Shown here: in pieces, positions 1 through 3,396 of the stretch
How positions within the stretch are numbered: position 1 is the stretch's first letter
Layout of the letters: every line of letters begins with the position of its first letter
From: Minisyncoccota bacterium
GTDB taxonomy: Bacteria; Patescibacteriota; Microgenomatia; UBA1400; PJMF01
Length of the DNA: 5,365 nucleotides
Assembly (NCBI GenBank): GCA_014728425.1
Contig: WJLO01000023.1
Span: forward strand, 1-5,365
Reading direction: 5' to 3'
Notes under the pieces: model-generated
Databases searched by the model: none
Seen by the model: the letters and a program-made list of their open reading frames with translations, nothing else
Told to the model about the DNA's origin: nothing
Translations under genes and position numbers: made by a program

Positions 1-134
1 ACCAGGCCCTCATCAGGATGGTTATAGTATCTTAACTATGAGTGGTTTGCCTAAACCTGTGTCTTTAGATCGATCTAACCAGGTTGTAGTCCAAGACTTG
101 CCTTTAATTAGAAATGAGCAAATGCACCGCTGTC
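1..134. repeat. 134-bp direct repeat R1, left copy
   Basis: This segment matches 2040-2173 in the same orientation with one difference (G at 49, A at 2088). Similarity stops at 134/2173; the left limit is unknown because the copy begins at the window edge. Read on the plus strand from base 2 it is open for 45 codons (from PGPHQDGY to NEQMHRCH) and stops at 137-139, so it could be the 3' end of a gene truncated by the edge. The G/A difference is synonymous in that frame (Leu), but also synonymous in an open minus-strand frame, so it does not settle the coding strand. I do not recognise the peptide. The copy lies to the left of the displaced ssrA fragment, just as the other copy lies to the left of the intact ssrA gene. 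Confidence 0.9.
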
Positions 135-169
135 ATTGAAGGGGCAACTTTGGCATTATTTTTTTGTTG

Positions 170-175
170 TATATT
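170..175 (+). promoter_or_regulatory. possible -10 element, leaderless spacing
   Basis: TATATT ends six bases before the ATG at 182, which would put the transcription start at or next to the A of the ATG. The only nearby -35-like match (TTTGGC, 149-154) is poor. The spacing is the same as at the 851 and comF starts. Confidence 0.35.
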
Positions 176-181
176 CAGCAT

Positions 182-631
182 ATGAGTAAAGTAATTACGA
201 TTTTTAACCAGAGCTTCAGAGGAATGCTCCCCAATTACCTGAATTTATCAAAAGAATTGTTGGCAATATAAATGATTTAACTGGAGAAGGCAGAGGATCA
301 ATGTTTATGCATATTGCTGAAATTATGAAAAAAGGTGGTAAAACTATTTCGTGTGTAGATATAACTAATAGAGTCAGCTACGAAGCTTATTATAATTTAA
401 TGAAATTACAAGCCCTGCCTATGGCTGCTTCTCTTATACCTTAAATACCTATAACGCCCGTTGGTCGACTTCTGTTAGCATTAGTATTACCTTTATCTTC
501 TTTTATAAAAGCCATTAGGGCAGCAAAACAATTTTTTTTATCATCTTCCACATTTAGATTATTTTTATAGAATTTATTCTTGGAAAGAGAGTTTAGCTAG
601 AGCTGCTAATCAGCCCGCATTAGCGTCATGA
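182..631 (+). pseudogene. decayed coding region, possibly a Rossmann-fold (methyltransferase-like) protein
   Basis: Coding-like sequence can be followed across three lesions. It starts at ATG 182 (MSKVITIF). A one-base loss near 206 moves it to the frame open from 208 (PELQRNAPQLPEFIKRIVG...). TAA at 442-444 interrupts it after AASLIP. The same frame resumes (IPITPVGRLLLALVLPL) up to the run of eight T at 532-539, where one extra T shifts it to the frame ending RAANQPALAS and TGA at 629-631. Repaired, it would be about 149 residues. The part reading GEGRGS, then about ten residues, then KKGGKTISCVDIT resembles a glycine-rich loop followed by a beta strand, as in class I SAM methyltransferases. 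That family call is weak. It lies between repeat R1 and the displaced ssrA fragment, in the presumed older element. The stops are TAA and TGA, so simple UGA recoding would not rescue it. Confidence 0.6.
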
Positions 632-696
632 TAGTTAACGACTTCAAAAAGAATACTCATTTTTAAATAGTTTTCAGATTGATACACCAACCTTTA
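632..696. other. short spacer without recognisable features
   Basis: These 65 AT-rich bases separate the pseudogene from the displaced ssrA fragment. No open frame, hairpin or promoter stands out. The end of the segment (TTTTCAGATT, 671-680) recurs in part at about 2182-2191 in the equivalent spacer next to the intact ssrA gene, but the match is too short to prove homology. Confidence 0.5.
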
Positions 697-796
697 GAGA
701 TGAGGGGCAATGAACCCCTGCCCGCAAACACGCAATCAAACAACCTCTACAGGCATAGTTTACTTTTAGATTTAGAGTTAGTGGTGAGTAAACCAA
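697..796 (-). repeat. displaced 3' fragment of ssrA (outer attachment-site copy)
   Basis: These 100 bp match 2283-2382, the 3' end of the tmRNA gene, in the same orientation with one substitution (C721 versus T2307). On the minus strand the fragment covers part of the PK4 region, the 3' strand of helix 2, the T-arm with its TTCATTG loop, and six of seven bases of the 3' acceptor strand. It has no 5' half, so it cannot make tmRNA. The one difference turns the conserved GGAC before the T-arm into GGGC, and the last acceptor base is also changed (C to T), as expected of a non-functional copy. A duplicated gene 3' end is the usual trace left by integration of an element at a tRNA or tmRNA gene. 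Confidence 0.85.
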
Positions 797-821
797 TAAC
801 ATTTATTTGGTTTTAGGTGTG

Positions 822-844
822 TATAATACTTAGGCATATATAAT
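822..844 (+). promoter_or_regulatory. two TATAAT -10 elements before the 851 gene
   Basis: Perfect TATAAT hexamers occur at 822-827 and 839-844. The second ends six bases before ATG 851, which would give a leaderless mRNA; the first would give a leader of about 17 bases. The bases TGTG precede the first box, close to an extended -10. No convincing -35 and no Shine-Dalgarno sequence are present in 797-850. The promoter lies directly beside the displaced ssrA fragment, at the edge of the putative element. Confidence 0.6.
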
Positions 845-850
845 ACACTC

Positions 851-2032
851 ATGCAAAAAGAAGAACAACAAGCTCAGCCTAAACAAGTAGAGTTAAAACA
901 AGAACTTTCTTTTCTCCTCAAAAAAAGGTACTGGAAGATAATTACAATTATTTTGGCACTACTTCTAGCACTCATTTCTATTGCTTTTTATTTTAGTCAA
1001 AATGAAGCAACTTTTTTAAAAACCACAAAAACAGAGACAGAAACAATGCCGGCTTCCTTAGCTACACAAGAAGAGGAATCGCTAGCAACAGTTGAAGAAC
1101 TAGAGTGCACAGGTAATAGAATAACAGATTATTCTGTGGGTTTTTCAATTACTTGCCCTTCTGATCTTAAACTATATACATATCAAGATAAACACCTTGC
1201 TTACAATGGCGCTTCTGAAAAAATGCTATATTTTTGTGAATCTCAAATAAATCCTTCAGAGGGATATGCAGATAGATGCACTACTGGTGGTATTTTAATT
1301 TGGGCTAACGGTGATGATTGGGAGGGCGAGTGTGAACCTGAGAACAGAGCTAGCATCCACCTAAATGGAGAGAAAAAGTCATACTGCTTATATCCAGAAC
1401 GATTTGATCAATTATATGTAGGAGACTTATTTGAAAAGCCAACTAATAGTGCCTTTTTGATTCAAGGGTCATTTTCTGATAATTTTACAAAAGAAGATGC
1501 CTTGGAGATGTTGAGCACTTTTCAGACTTTGCCAGATATAAGTGAGTGGAATATTTATGAAAATGAAGAATATGGGTTTAAATTCAAATATCCGGATGGT
1601 TGGGAAGTGGAGAAGATAAATTTAGATGCTGATACGGCTTTCCACGAGGGGGCAGAAAAAGTTGAATACATGTTGATATATTCCCCAAATAAAAAATATC
1701 AGCTTCACTTAGGCATAAAAGAAAAAGGAAATGAAAAAGTACAGATAACAACAAGGACTGGAGTTGGTGCTGGTGATTTTGTAAAAACGAATTATATTTT
1801 AGTCAATGGTCTTAAAGTTGATGTATACAACCTTGTTTTTCAAGATAAAGTACAAGAAGTGTTTTTTGGAAAAGATGCAAGTAGATTTTATATTGGAGAA
1901 TACGAATTAGTATCTTACTTTAGTTATTCCAATGAAAATGACAGCATCAACATAGATAAAATGGATATGACAGACATAGAAGAAGTTGATATTGCTAAGA
2001 GAATTCTTTCTAGCTTAGAGTTTATGAACTGA
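851..2032 (+). CDS. membrane-anchored secreted protein with two PsbP-like modules, function unknown
   Basis: The 393-residue product has a charged N-terminal cytoplasmic tail (1-28), one membrane helix (about 29-48, ITIILALLLALISIAFYF) and a Thr/Glu-rich linker (about 52-85). The rest is probably outside the cell. Two modules follow. The first (about 88-229) begins YSVGFSITCPSDLKL and ends EMLSTFQTL; the second (about 235-392) begins YGFKFKYPDGWEVEK and ends KRILSSLEF. This layout (GFxhxhPxxW near the start, a hhSSh helix at the end) is like the PsbP-related proteins common in CPR bacteria. All six cysteines (86, 102, 129, 143, 161, 179) lie before or in the first module, so disulfides are plausible. 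ATG 851 is chosen because it starts the open frame beside the -10 boxes; there is no ribosome binding site. It is the only gene in the putative element. A surface or binding role is inference. Confidence 0.85.
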   Translation: MQKEEQQAQPKQVELKQELSFLLKKRYWKIITIILALLLALISIAFYFSQNEATFLKTTKTETETMPASLATQEEESLATVEELECTGNRITDYSVGFSITCPSDLKLYTYQDKHLAYNGASEKMLYFCESQINPSEGYADRCTTGGILIWANGDDWEGECEPENRASIHLNGEKKSYCLYPERFDQLYVGDLFEKPTNSAFLIQGSFSDNFTKEDALEMLSTFQTLPDISEWNIYENEEYGFKFKYPDGWEVEKINLDADTAFHEGAEKVEYMLIYSPNKKYQLHLGIKEKGNEKVQITTRTGVGAGDFVKTNYILVNGLKVDVYNLVFQDKVQEVFFGKDASRFYIGEYELVSYFSYSNENDSINIDKMDMTDIEEVDIAKRILSSLEFMN

Positions 2033-2039
2033 TTTTACA

Positions 2040-2173
2040 ACCAGGCCCTCATCAGGATGGTTATAGTATCTTAACTATGAGTGGTTTACCTAAACCTGTG
2101 TCTTTAGATCGATCTAACCAGGTTGTAGTCCAAGACTTGCCTTTAATTAGAAATGAGCAAATGCACCGCTGTC
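2040..2173. repeat. 134-bp direct repeat R1, inner copy
   Basis: This is the second copy of 1-134 with one substitution (A2088). It begins seven bases after the TGA of the 851 gene, though its true left limit is unknown because the other copy is cut by the window edge. It ends 109 bases short of the duplicated ssrA tail. The plus-strand frame of the left copy is open here from 2014 (after TAG at 2011-2013) to TAG at 2176-2178 and has no start upstream, so any gene in it is truncated. It may be an end region shared by related elements. Confidence 0.9.
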
Positions 2174-2280
2174 GGTAGATTTTTTTCAGATTTGCCAAAT
2201 GATTTTTTGAGTATATCAAGCAGGGCAAACCCTTCAAACCTTGGTGTAGGGTAAACCATTAGAACCTTGGTGAAGAAGGG
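2174..2280. other. spacer downstream of ssrA with a 10-bp direct repeat
   Basis: This unique spacer lies between repeat R1 and the tmRNA 3' end. AACCTTGGTG occurs twice (2237-2246 and 2263-2272, period 26). Arm-type integrase sites are often short direct repeats near attachment sites, so this is worth noting, but two copies prove nothing. On the minus strand, CAAG...GGG TTTG CCC...CTTG (2247 down to 2221) could fold into a weak hairpin after ssrA, without a following T run, so I do not call a terminator. The open minus frame across this spacer and the ssrA tail is not taken as a gene. Confidence 0.5.
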
Positions 2281-2282
2281 TG

Positions 2283-2382
2283 GAGATGAGGGGCAATGAA
2301 CCCCTGTCCGCAAACACGCAATCAAACAACCTCTACAGGCATAGTTTACTTTTAGATTTAGAGTTAGTGGTGAGTAAACCAA
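2283..2382 (-). repeat. ssrA 3' end, functional attachment-site copy
   Basis: This is the 100-bp stretch of ssrA duplicated at 697-796. It includes the T-arm hairpin (AGGGG/CCCCT) and nearly the whole 3' acceptor strand. It is the intact copy: it keeps the GGAC motif and continues into the rest of the gene. If an element integrated here, this copy joins the chromosomal 5' part of ssrA to an element-supplied tail. Confidence 0.8.
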
Positions 2383-2398
2383 CCGCACTTACTCCATC

Positions 2399-2497
2399 CA
2401 GGTCAAAATTCTTAAGTTAACAGCGACCTGCAACCATTAACTGTCACACTGACTAGGTTTTCACCCATGAGCTTTCGCCAGTGAAAAAAGACTCATG
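2399..2497 (-). other. tmRNA pseudoknots PK2 and PK3
   Basis: PK2: stem 1 is CATGAG (2497-2492) with CTCATG (2471-2466). A loop stretch TTTTCAC (2487-2481) pairs with GTGAAAA (2464-2458). PK3: stem 1 is AGTTAA (2442-2437) with TTAACT (2420-2415). The loop stretch CAGGTC (2430-2425) pairs with GACCTG (2404-2399). Both are perfect H-type pseudoknots in the order expected after helix 5, and both fit only the minus strand as an RNA. Confidence 0.85.
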
Positions 2498-2501
2498 AAT
2501 G

Positions 2502-2527
2502 CCAGTTTAAGCGTAAAGCTGAGCTGG
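2502..2527 (-). other. tmRNA helix 5 containing the tag stop codon
   Basis: CCAGCTCAGC (2527-2518) pairs with GC, one bulged base, then TTAAACTGG (2512-2502), allowing two G-U pairs, around a five-base loop. The tag stop TAA (2509-2507) lies in its 3' strand, as in E. coli helix 5, where the tag stop is also within the helix. Confidence 0.65.
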
Positions 2528-2611
2528 AGCTGCCTGCCGTCCTTGGAGCATGGCGACAAAATTGTCGCGAGCCTCGCGGAGGGCGGCAACTGTACTGCGT
2601 ATTTCAGAAAC
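2507..2611 (-). other. tmRNA proteolysis-tag reading frame, 34 codons
   Basis: The frame resumes at GTT 2611, eleven bases after PK1, the same distance as in E. coli tmRNA, and ends at TAA 2509-2507 inside helix 5. The peptide starts VSEIRSTV and ends APAQLYA. At 34 residues it is far longer than the common 8-16 and longer than the roughly 26-residue mycoplasma tags. Codons 8-26 include a strong hairpin: TGCCGCCCTC (2588-2579) with AAGGACGGCA (2544-2535), one G-U pair allowed, with an inner GCGACA/TGTCGC stem (2568-2563 with 2558-2553). The hairpin spans 54 nt, a multiple of three; without it the tag would be the 16-residue VSEIRSTVAAPAQLYA. The other two frames give an immediate TGA or no stop near helix 5, which supports this frame. 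The small hydrophobic end (LYA) resembles other tags ending in Tyr-Ala or Ala-Ala. Confidence 0.7.
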
Positions 2612-2619
2612 GACAGTTA

Positions 2620-2657
2620 TTTTTTAACTCTGTTTGATATCTATTAGTTAAAGATAG
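2620..2657 (-). other. tmRNA pseudoknot PK1 upstream of the tag
   Basis: CTAT (2657-2654) pairs with ATAG (2644-2641); shifting to TATC/GATA is equally possible. The loop stretch TTTAACT (2652-2646) pairs with AGTTAAA (2629-2623), giving an H-type pseudoknot. Eleven bases (2622-2612) then lead to the resume codon, which fixes the tag frame. Confidence 0.8.
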
Positions 2658-2712
2658 CCTGCAGTTGTTAAAGAGCGGTCACGTCAAAACTATACATCCC
2701 CTTAAGCTATAT

Positions 2713-2741
2713 ATTATAGGATATTCAAGCTTAAAATTCAA
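2713..2741 (-). promoter_or_regulatory. ssrA promoter (TTGAAT-N17-TATAAT)
   Basis: On the minus strand, -35 TTGAAT occupies 2741-2736 and a perfect -10 TATAAT occupies 2718-2713, with the ideal 17-base spacer. Transcription would start at about 2706, a few bases before the mature tmRNA 5' end at 2701, leaving a short leader for RNase P. The -35 begins one base after the comF stop codon (2745-2743), so comF read-through could also feed ssrA. This is the best consensus promoter in the window, fitting a highly expressed RNA. Confidence 0.8.
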
Positions 2742-2742
2742 T

Positions 2743-3396
2743 CTAACCTTCATGACAAACTGCTACACTAATTACTCGAGTAACGCCAGTTTGTTTAAGC
2801 ACTTTAGCACATTCATTAAGGGTAGTGCCAGTAGTAATTACATCATCTAAAATCAACACTGTTTGATCAAGTAGTTGATTACTTTTTATGCCTGGCATTA
2901 ATAAAAAAACGTTTTGTAAATGCTGTAGTCGTTTGGCCCGATCTCGAATTTGGGCTTGAGGTTGAGTGTAGTAAGTCCTGACCAGCAATTCTTGATAGTC
3001 AGTTTGTGTTAAACGCGCCAATTCTTGACCCATCACTGCTGCTTGATTAAAACCACGCTCTTTTAGGCGATCAGAGTGCAAAGGTACAGTAGTAATTAAG
3101 GGCGCAGTTATTACATCAGCCAAATAAAACCACAGCAGCTTAGCTAAAAACAATCCAATTTTTTTAATTTGTTGATATTTATAAGCTTGAATCAAGCTTG
3201 ATAATGGAGGCTGATAACGACCCATAGCCCAACTTTGATCAAGATAGTTAGGTTTAAGTTGGAGTTGTACTGGTAAACTAAAAAAATCAATTTGGTTTAA
3301 ACAATCATCACAAAGAAAACAGTTCCATCTTTGACATTGCACACAAAACTTGGGTAAAACTAGATCTAGTAAATTGTTTTTGAGTTGAGCTAGCAT
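2743..3396 (-). CDS. comF: ComF family phosphoribosyltransferase-like protein
   Basis: The 217-residue product has the full ComF layout and a normal family length. An N-terminal zinc-ribbon-like region holds Cys18, 21, 26, 29 and 32 (FCVQCQRWNCFLCDDC). The middle has VPLHSDRLKERGFNQA (104-119), the usual ComF VPxxxxRxxxRGFNQ motif. The C-terminal part has the PRPP-binding loop LILDDVITTGTTL (181-193) with its paired acidic residues. ComF proteins are linked to DNA uptake in naturally competent bacteria and the family also occurs in many others; the reaction, if any, is unsettled. ATG 3396 is chosen because the conserved N-terminus follows it and a TATAAA box lies six bases upstream; there is no Shine-Dalgarno. 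The gene diverges from the 3430 gene and ends beside the ssrA promoter with no clear terminator between. Confidence 0.92.
   Translation of the reverse strand: MLAQLKNNLLDLVLPKFCVQCQRWNCFLCDDCLNQIDFFSLPVQLQLKPNYLDQSWAMGRYQPPLSSLIQAYKYQQIKKIGLFLAKLLWFYLADVITAPLITTVPLHSDRLKERGFNQAAVMGQELARLTQTDYQELLVRTYYTQPQAQIRDRAKRLQHLQNVFLLMPGIKSNQLLDQTVLILDDVITTGTTLNECAKVLKQTGVTRVISVAVCHEG

Follow-up and report, generated by a model that had tools for sequence, protein, structure and literature searches.

A duplicated gene junction around an extra gene beside the tmRNA gene of a Minisyncoccota bacterium: a possible Campbell-like homologous insertion

A second copy of the tail of ssrA, the tmRNA gene, stands beyond an extra protein gene in this Minisyncoccota bacterium, which raises the question whether the DNA in between is a site-specific element set into ssrA or a product of some other exchange. 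The window analysed is the whole of contig C2 (5,365 nt), which belongs to a draft genome (846 kb, 124 contigs, 81% complete); its features are collected in Table 1. The first-pass annotation had read 697–2282 as a cargo-only mini-element integrated at ssrA, and the observations on which it relied were reproduced. The terminal 100 nt of ssrA recur in direct orientation with a single change (721/2307), and the identity ends at 697/2283, one base inside the 3' strand of the acceptor, in agreement with the edge within two bases of the tmRNA 3' end that had been described. Beyond this edge, positions 696/2282 differ, the discriminator A (695/2281) is common to both copies, and divergence follows. 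The enclosed DNA likewise holds one protein gene (Y) and no integrase, as had been stated.

What had been missed is a second direct repeat, A, which is co-linear with the ssrA-tail repeat (T) and agrees at 133 of 134 positions. As one A copy lies inside the claimed element and the other outside it, the reading of the locus changes. The mini-element reading is supported in part: an insertion or duplication beside ssrA is indeed present in the assembly; an att-bounded element spanning 697–2282 fits less well, because the A repeat shows that a larger junction module has been duplicated. With a second repeat of like divergence, the locus comes close to the larger local duplication with no att-like boundary which the annotation had set against its own proposal.

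Table 1. Features of the tmRNA locus on contig C2 (positions in the window).
Feature	Position	Strand	Remark
A1, 3' end of gene X	1..134	+	direct repeat with 2040–2173; X stop codon 137–139
B, first-module spacer	135..696		broken reading frames; longest open stretch inspected 208–441
T1, displaced last 100 nt of ssrA	697..796	-	99/100 identical to 2283–2382; taken as relic
Gene Y, 393 aa	851..2032	+	single long frame of 797–2282
A2, second X-tail copy without the X 5' part	2030..2173	+	2040–2173 repeats 1–134; 2030–2084 identical to the end of contig C85
D, second-module spacer	2174..2282		adjoins the 3' end of mature ssrA
T2, tail of the complete ssrA	2283..2382	-	continuous with the Rfam tmRNA match 2701–2278
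ssrA (tmRNA gene)	2278..2701	-	Rfam RF00023, 84.4 bits

The score of the tmRNA match compares with a gathering score of 47 in Rfam, and ARAGORN made no tmRNA call at the ssrA locus. All 31 aligned ssrA tails have A as the minus-strand base at 2307, whereas T1 carries G; T2 was therefore considered the functional tail and T1 a relic, and for the same reason the complete ssrA is regarded as the copy that adjoins spacer D. The longest exact run within the T repeat is 75 nt. A hairpin spanning the T1/Y join is no more stable than most of its shuffles (z −0.8). Directly upstream of ssrA, at 2743–3396, lies a ComF-like phosphoribosyltransferase gene, and a ComF-like match was found in 21 of the ssrA loci of 30 relatives.

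The only mismatch of the A repeat (49/2088) is a synonymous TTG/TTA change, and no exact direct repeat in the window is longer than its run of 85 nt. As 50 dinucleotide shuffles gave exact repeats of 18 nt at most, chance is excluded for both A and T; the locus is present in the assembly and is not a product of chance. The 5' part of gene X (188 aa) is found on the minus strand of contig C85 (L039), where it is open at the contig end. The terminal 55 nt of C85 are identical to window positions 2030–2084, and the last 45 of them also to 1–45; from this overlap at the contig ends we infer that C85 joins the start of C2. The identity between the A copies ends at the first base of the last X codon, and either copy would give X an intact end (HRCH or HRCR); A1 was left as the tail of X because A2 follows Y in the assembled order. 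The stop codon of Y is formed by the first three bases of the A segment in common with the C85 end. From left to right the order is thus X 5' part (C85), A1, B, T1, gene Y, A2, D, T2 and ssrA, that is, a module of X tail, spacer and ssrA tail stands in two copies, in the same order but with different spacers, around the extra gene Y.

The explanation preferred for this arrangement, with confidence about evenly balanced, is that the duplicated junction around Y arose by a Campbell-like homologous insertion of ∼2.04 kb rather than through a site-specific integrase. It is favoured because the two co-linear direct repeats diverge about equally (1/134 and 1/100), and supported by the continuation of X from C85 into A, by T2, which has the invariant A that T1 lacks, by the two spacers, both of which begin in the last codon of X and finish at the ssrA 3' end, and by the lack of a recombinase in the interval together with the Xer-like nature of the tyrosine recombinases of the draft. 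In the proposed course of events, the native state would be a convergent-gene junction, X-A-D-T-ssrA, which would be met by a circle (or other copy) of the form A-B-T-Y. Recombination in the A homology would then yield X-A1-B-T1-Y-A2-D-T2-ssrA, a product in which X would keep a full tail (A1) and ssrA a full tail (T2), with the relics T1 and A2 facing the new gene. Recombination between the two A copies would release a circle of 2,039 bp and restore X-A-D-T-ssrA; recombination between the two T copies would release one of 1,586 bp. The incoming DNA would probably derive from transformation or from a local duplication. Furthermore, between the module copies the blocks stand in the order T-Y-A, reversed with respect to the native A-spacer-T. 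This supports a circle or a tandem copy, since either produces such a reversal; a site-specific insertion at T would do so only for an element that had A beforehand.

The spacers B (562 nt) and D (109 nt) have a longest exact match of 10 nt and otherwise only a single 17-nt stretch at 82% (664–680 / 2176–2192), a resemblance taken for chance in such A+T-rich DNA. This unlikeness demands a second allele or an extra step and counts against the Campbell-like insertion. As both spacers run between two gene ends, the att-like edge of T is also the edge of a swapped spacer, and it is not evident that the boundary at the tmRNA 3' end is that of an att site; an edge at that position is also expected from a site-specific element, a further point against the homologous reading. 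B gave no Pfam family at a useful score, nothing usable in PHROGs, no match except itself across 88 genomes and none confirmed among viral contigs, and its identification as a known gene was rejected on these grounds. Compared with its shuffles, the fold of spacer D does not stand out (z −1.3); two adjacent 26-nt direct repeats (81%) lie in this spacer at 2222–2273, immediately beyond the 3' end of ssrA.

The same structure could in principle be made if the A-D-T junction had been duplicated in tandem, with Y as 1.2 kb of filler where the copies meet, and B had later replaced one of the spacers. Such a course would account for both repeats and for the everted T-Y-A order without any circle; however, the filler must comprise one complete gene whose stop codon falls where the copies meet, and one spacer must have been exchanged in a separate event bounded by both gene ends. 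This origin is considered very unlikely.

The Campbell-like insertion presupposes that the assembler joined the sequence correctly across T and A, in which the exact runs measure 75 and 85 nt, respectively, and an assembly effect has to be weighed at this point. A chromosome of the form X-A-D-T-ssrA and a 2,039-bp circle A-B-T-Y, or two mixed strains, may have been threaded together through A and T. That contig C2 begins inside A and C85 finishes inside A agrees with such threading, and a chromosome plus a circle fits the set of junctions as well as a single path does; a 127-nt contig-end overlap in another genome of the class (G416) is a concrete case of a second tail being mimicked in this manner. 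However, both T copies and A2 lie within one contig, the would-be circle carries no replication gene, and the junctions T1-Y and Y-A2, each of which is unique, must exist on some molecule if they are not chimeric themselves. An artefact of this kind is given a low probability.

The tmRNA was searched in 52 genomes, and the ssrA loci of 30 relatives were compared, all of which belong to other genera, so that none serves as a true empty-site control. A second copy of the relative's own ssrA tail was found in none of the 30 loci within the ≤1.5 kb of flank examined, and X had no match in these loci. The comparison of relatives proposed in the annotation thus gave a consistent lack of second tails and no empty site of the kind it had called for; neither a circle nor an empty site was seen in the assembly and the other-genus relatives compared, which also stands against the Campbell-like insertion. 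A 70-nt tail model run on 88 genomes of the order matched in 79, with two matches only in the present genome, although the model requires most of the 70 nt and short att-like tails would be missed; the 87 other genomes gave one match in 78, none in 9 and two in 0. Among 373 genomes drawn from the class, the tail was matched in 334, and two matches were recorded in 6 including the present one. The second tail of G416 is the contig-end overlap mentioned above, imitating a duplicate; the two-tail matches of G150, G288, G389 and G393 may be displaced tails or contig-end overlaps, and a single tail was found in the 16 kb examined of G288.

The proposal of the first-pass annotation can be put in its fullest form as follows: a recombinase coded elsewhere would integrate a T-Y-A-D circle at the 3' end of ssrA, A and D being host DNA that the element had picked up earlier. 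The termination of the repeat at the tmRNA 3' end agrees with this, and ssrA is a known target; in addition, 15 of 31 Dehalococcoides ssrA islands have no integration module (PMC3146451). However, integration at T alone leaves the second repeat A unexplained, the repeat measures 100 nt instead of a short core (20 bp in Dehalococcoides, PMC3146451), and no second tail turned up in the other 87 genomes of the order, among which 9 lacked any tail match. The interval also contains no recombinase and has no phage or plasmid match and no confirmed viral-contig match. A cargo-only ssrA element is accordingly judged unlikely.

The recombinases of the genome were surveyed for an enzyme that could act on the locus. 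No recombinase family was detected in Y, the only long frame of 797–2282, or anywhere on C2 and C85, and an element with its own integrase was rejected because none is encoded in the interval. The search for a tyrosine recombinase that the annotation had recommended did find two in the draft; they are XerC/XerD-like, both match the XerC model best and both fall below the XerC/XerD cut-offs, and exactly two tyrosine recombinases occur in 26 of 42 family genomes, the present one included. There are also two large serine recombinases, on C108 (L058, 6–1766) and C20 (L059, 386–2095), each near a contig end, whose frames extend into the genes for tRNA-Ser(CGA) and tRNA-Glu(TTC), respectively, at their 3' ends. 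They resemble integrases of elements sitting at tRNA genes and could act in trans, which favours the cargo-only element. As the draft is 81% complete, a further recombinase could be missing from it. When the tRNA-Ser end on C108 was taken as a control for long tail repeats beside a recombinase of the present genome, no near-identical second copy was found, and three other matches stood at 81–84%. Beside the serine recombinase of L059, a 61-nt tandem repeat (95% identical) starts at the tRNA-Glu gene (2126–2247).

Gene Y gave no confirmed link to phage or plasmid DNA in the collections searched. Window positions 1–2720 gave no DNA match in phages or plasmids, and the Y protein gave none either; PHROGs returned two weak matches (0.0037 and 0.012) and PADLOC none. 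A search for Y relatives found one stretch in viral contigs that fitted the pattern and was unconfirmed, and 49 in genome contigs, none of them confirmed. A 24-mer derived from A was not found in viral contigs, and a 23-mer of the ssrA tail was absent from the viral and genome contigs searched. A phage or plasmid origin was rejected on the lack of a DNA match for 1–2720, of a Y protein match and of a confirmed relative in viral contigs. The third-position G+C of Y (0.25) lies within the range seen for six genes nearby on C2 and C85 (0.21–0.34), and composition therefore shows no sign of foreign origin.

The Y protein has an N-terminal hydrophobic stretch, read from its sequence, and a weak PsbP-like stretch below cut-offs; at a guess, it may be a membrane-anchored surface protein. 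Screened against ∼5.8 billion proteins, it matched itself and a single weak relative, P0002, and in 42 family genomes two short partial matches were obtained besides itself, one on contig C75 of its own genome and the other in G060. The best match in the ssrA loci of the 30 relatives had an E-value of 0.08. The predicted structure (mean pLDDT 36.7) is too poor to use, and no relative was found among solved structures. On C75 (L042), two small genes at 1147–1857 and 2285–2878 encode a hydrophobic N-terminal stretch and match the PsbP-like part of Y over a short length.

A route of entry for the homologous insertion is suggested by Saccharibacteria, in which natural transformation with recombination has been shown with flanking homologies of ∼1,000 bp each (PMC10633639). 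This supports the Campbell-like insertion and, by analogy, makes entry by transformation and recombination plausible at the present locus; the homologies of 134 and 100 nt are, however, shorter than those ∼1,000 bp, which counts against it. It is also conceivable, although quite unlikely, that the locus represents a recombinase-free cassette that is moved by homologous recombination alone and spreads by transformation among CPR-type bacteria. Such a cassette would enter and leave as a 2.04-kb circle with both genes unharmed, because its ends copy the tails of the convergent X and ssrA. If the locus is real, a very small genome would have gained a gene beside its tmRNA gene without an integrase and with its neighbours unbroken. 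A displaced tmRNA tail alone is not proof of an integrative element, as evident from the second repeat, which altered the reading here. No paper on a comparable locus in Patescibacteria/CPR was found among those listed from the open-licence literature.

Among known systems, the ssrA islands of Dehalococcoides (including vcr-GIs), the closest published case encountered, are described in PMC3146451 as having 20-bp repeats and, in 16 of 31 cases, a module with a CcrB-like serine recombinase (DsiB). The present locus is like those islands in that the DNA downstream of ssrA has a displaced copy of the ssrA tail as its boundary, but it is unlike them in its 100-nt repeat, in the lack of a recombinase at ssrA and in the additional 134-nt repeat of the tail of a neighbouring gene. 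The locus would at most work like a module-less Dehalococcoides island. Cis-mobilizable elements (CIMEs), a term used in PMC3146451, likewise hold cargo between att-like repeats and have no integrase of their own; here, unlike in CIMEs, no partner element was found at ssrA and the repeats extend beyond an att core. An integrase inside the element, which is needed for an IME and not for a CIME, is absent. The direct repetition of the ssrA 3' tail at the far end is as in a site-specific ssrA element, in which nothing but the attachment site recurs at the two ends, but here the A repeat is present as well.

The remaining comparison is with insertion by homology. In a Campbell-type single-crossover insertion or a tandem duplication, direct duplicated homology flanks new DNA and the host genes stay whole. 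The present locus is alike in its direct duplicated homology around new DNA and in its two whole host genes, and A and T provide the at least two co-linear, directly duplicated blocks that belong to such an event. Homology does not extend over the whole block, as B and D are unlike; this sets the locus apart from a plain Campbell-type insertion and indicates that the donor differed from a simple copy of the junction found here. The unlike spacers thus lower the case for a plain Campbell insertion, not the case for a locus that works like one.
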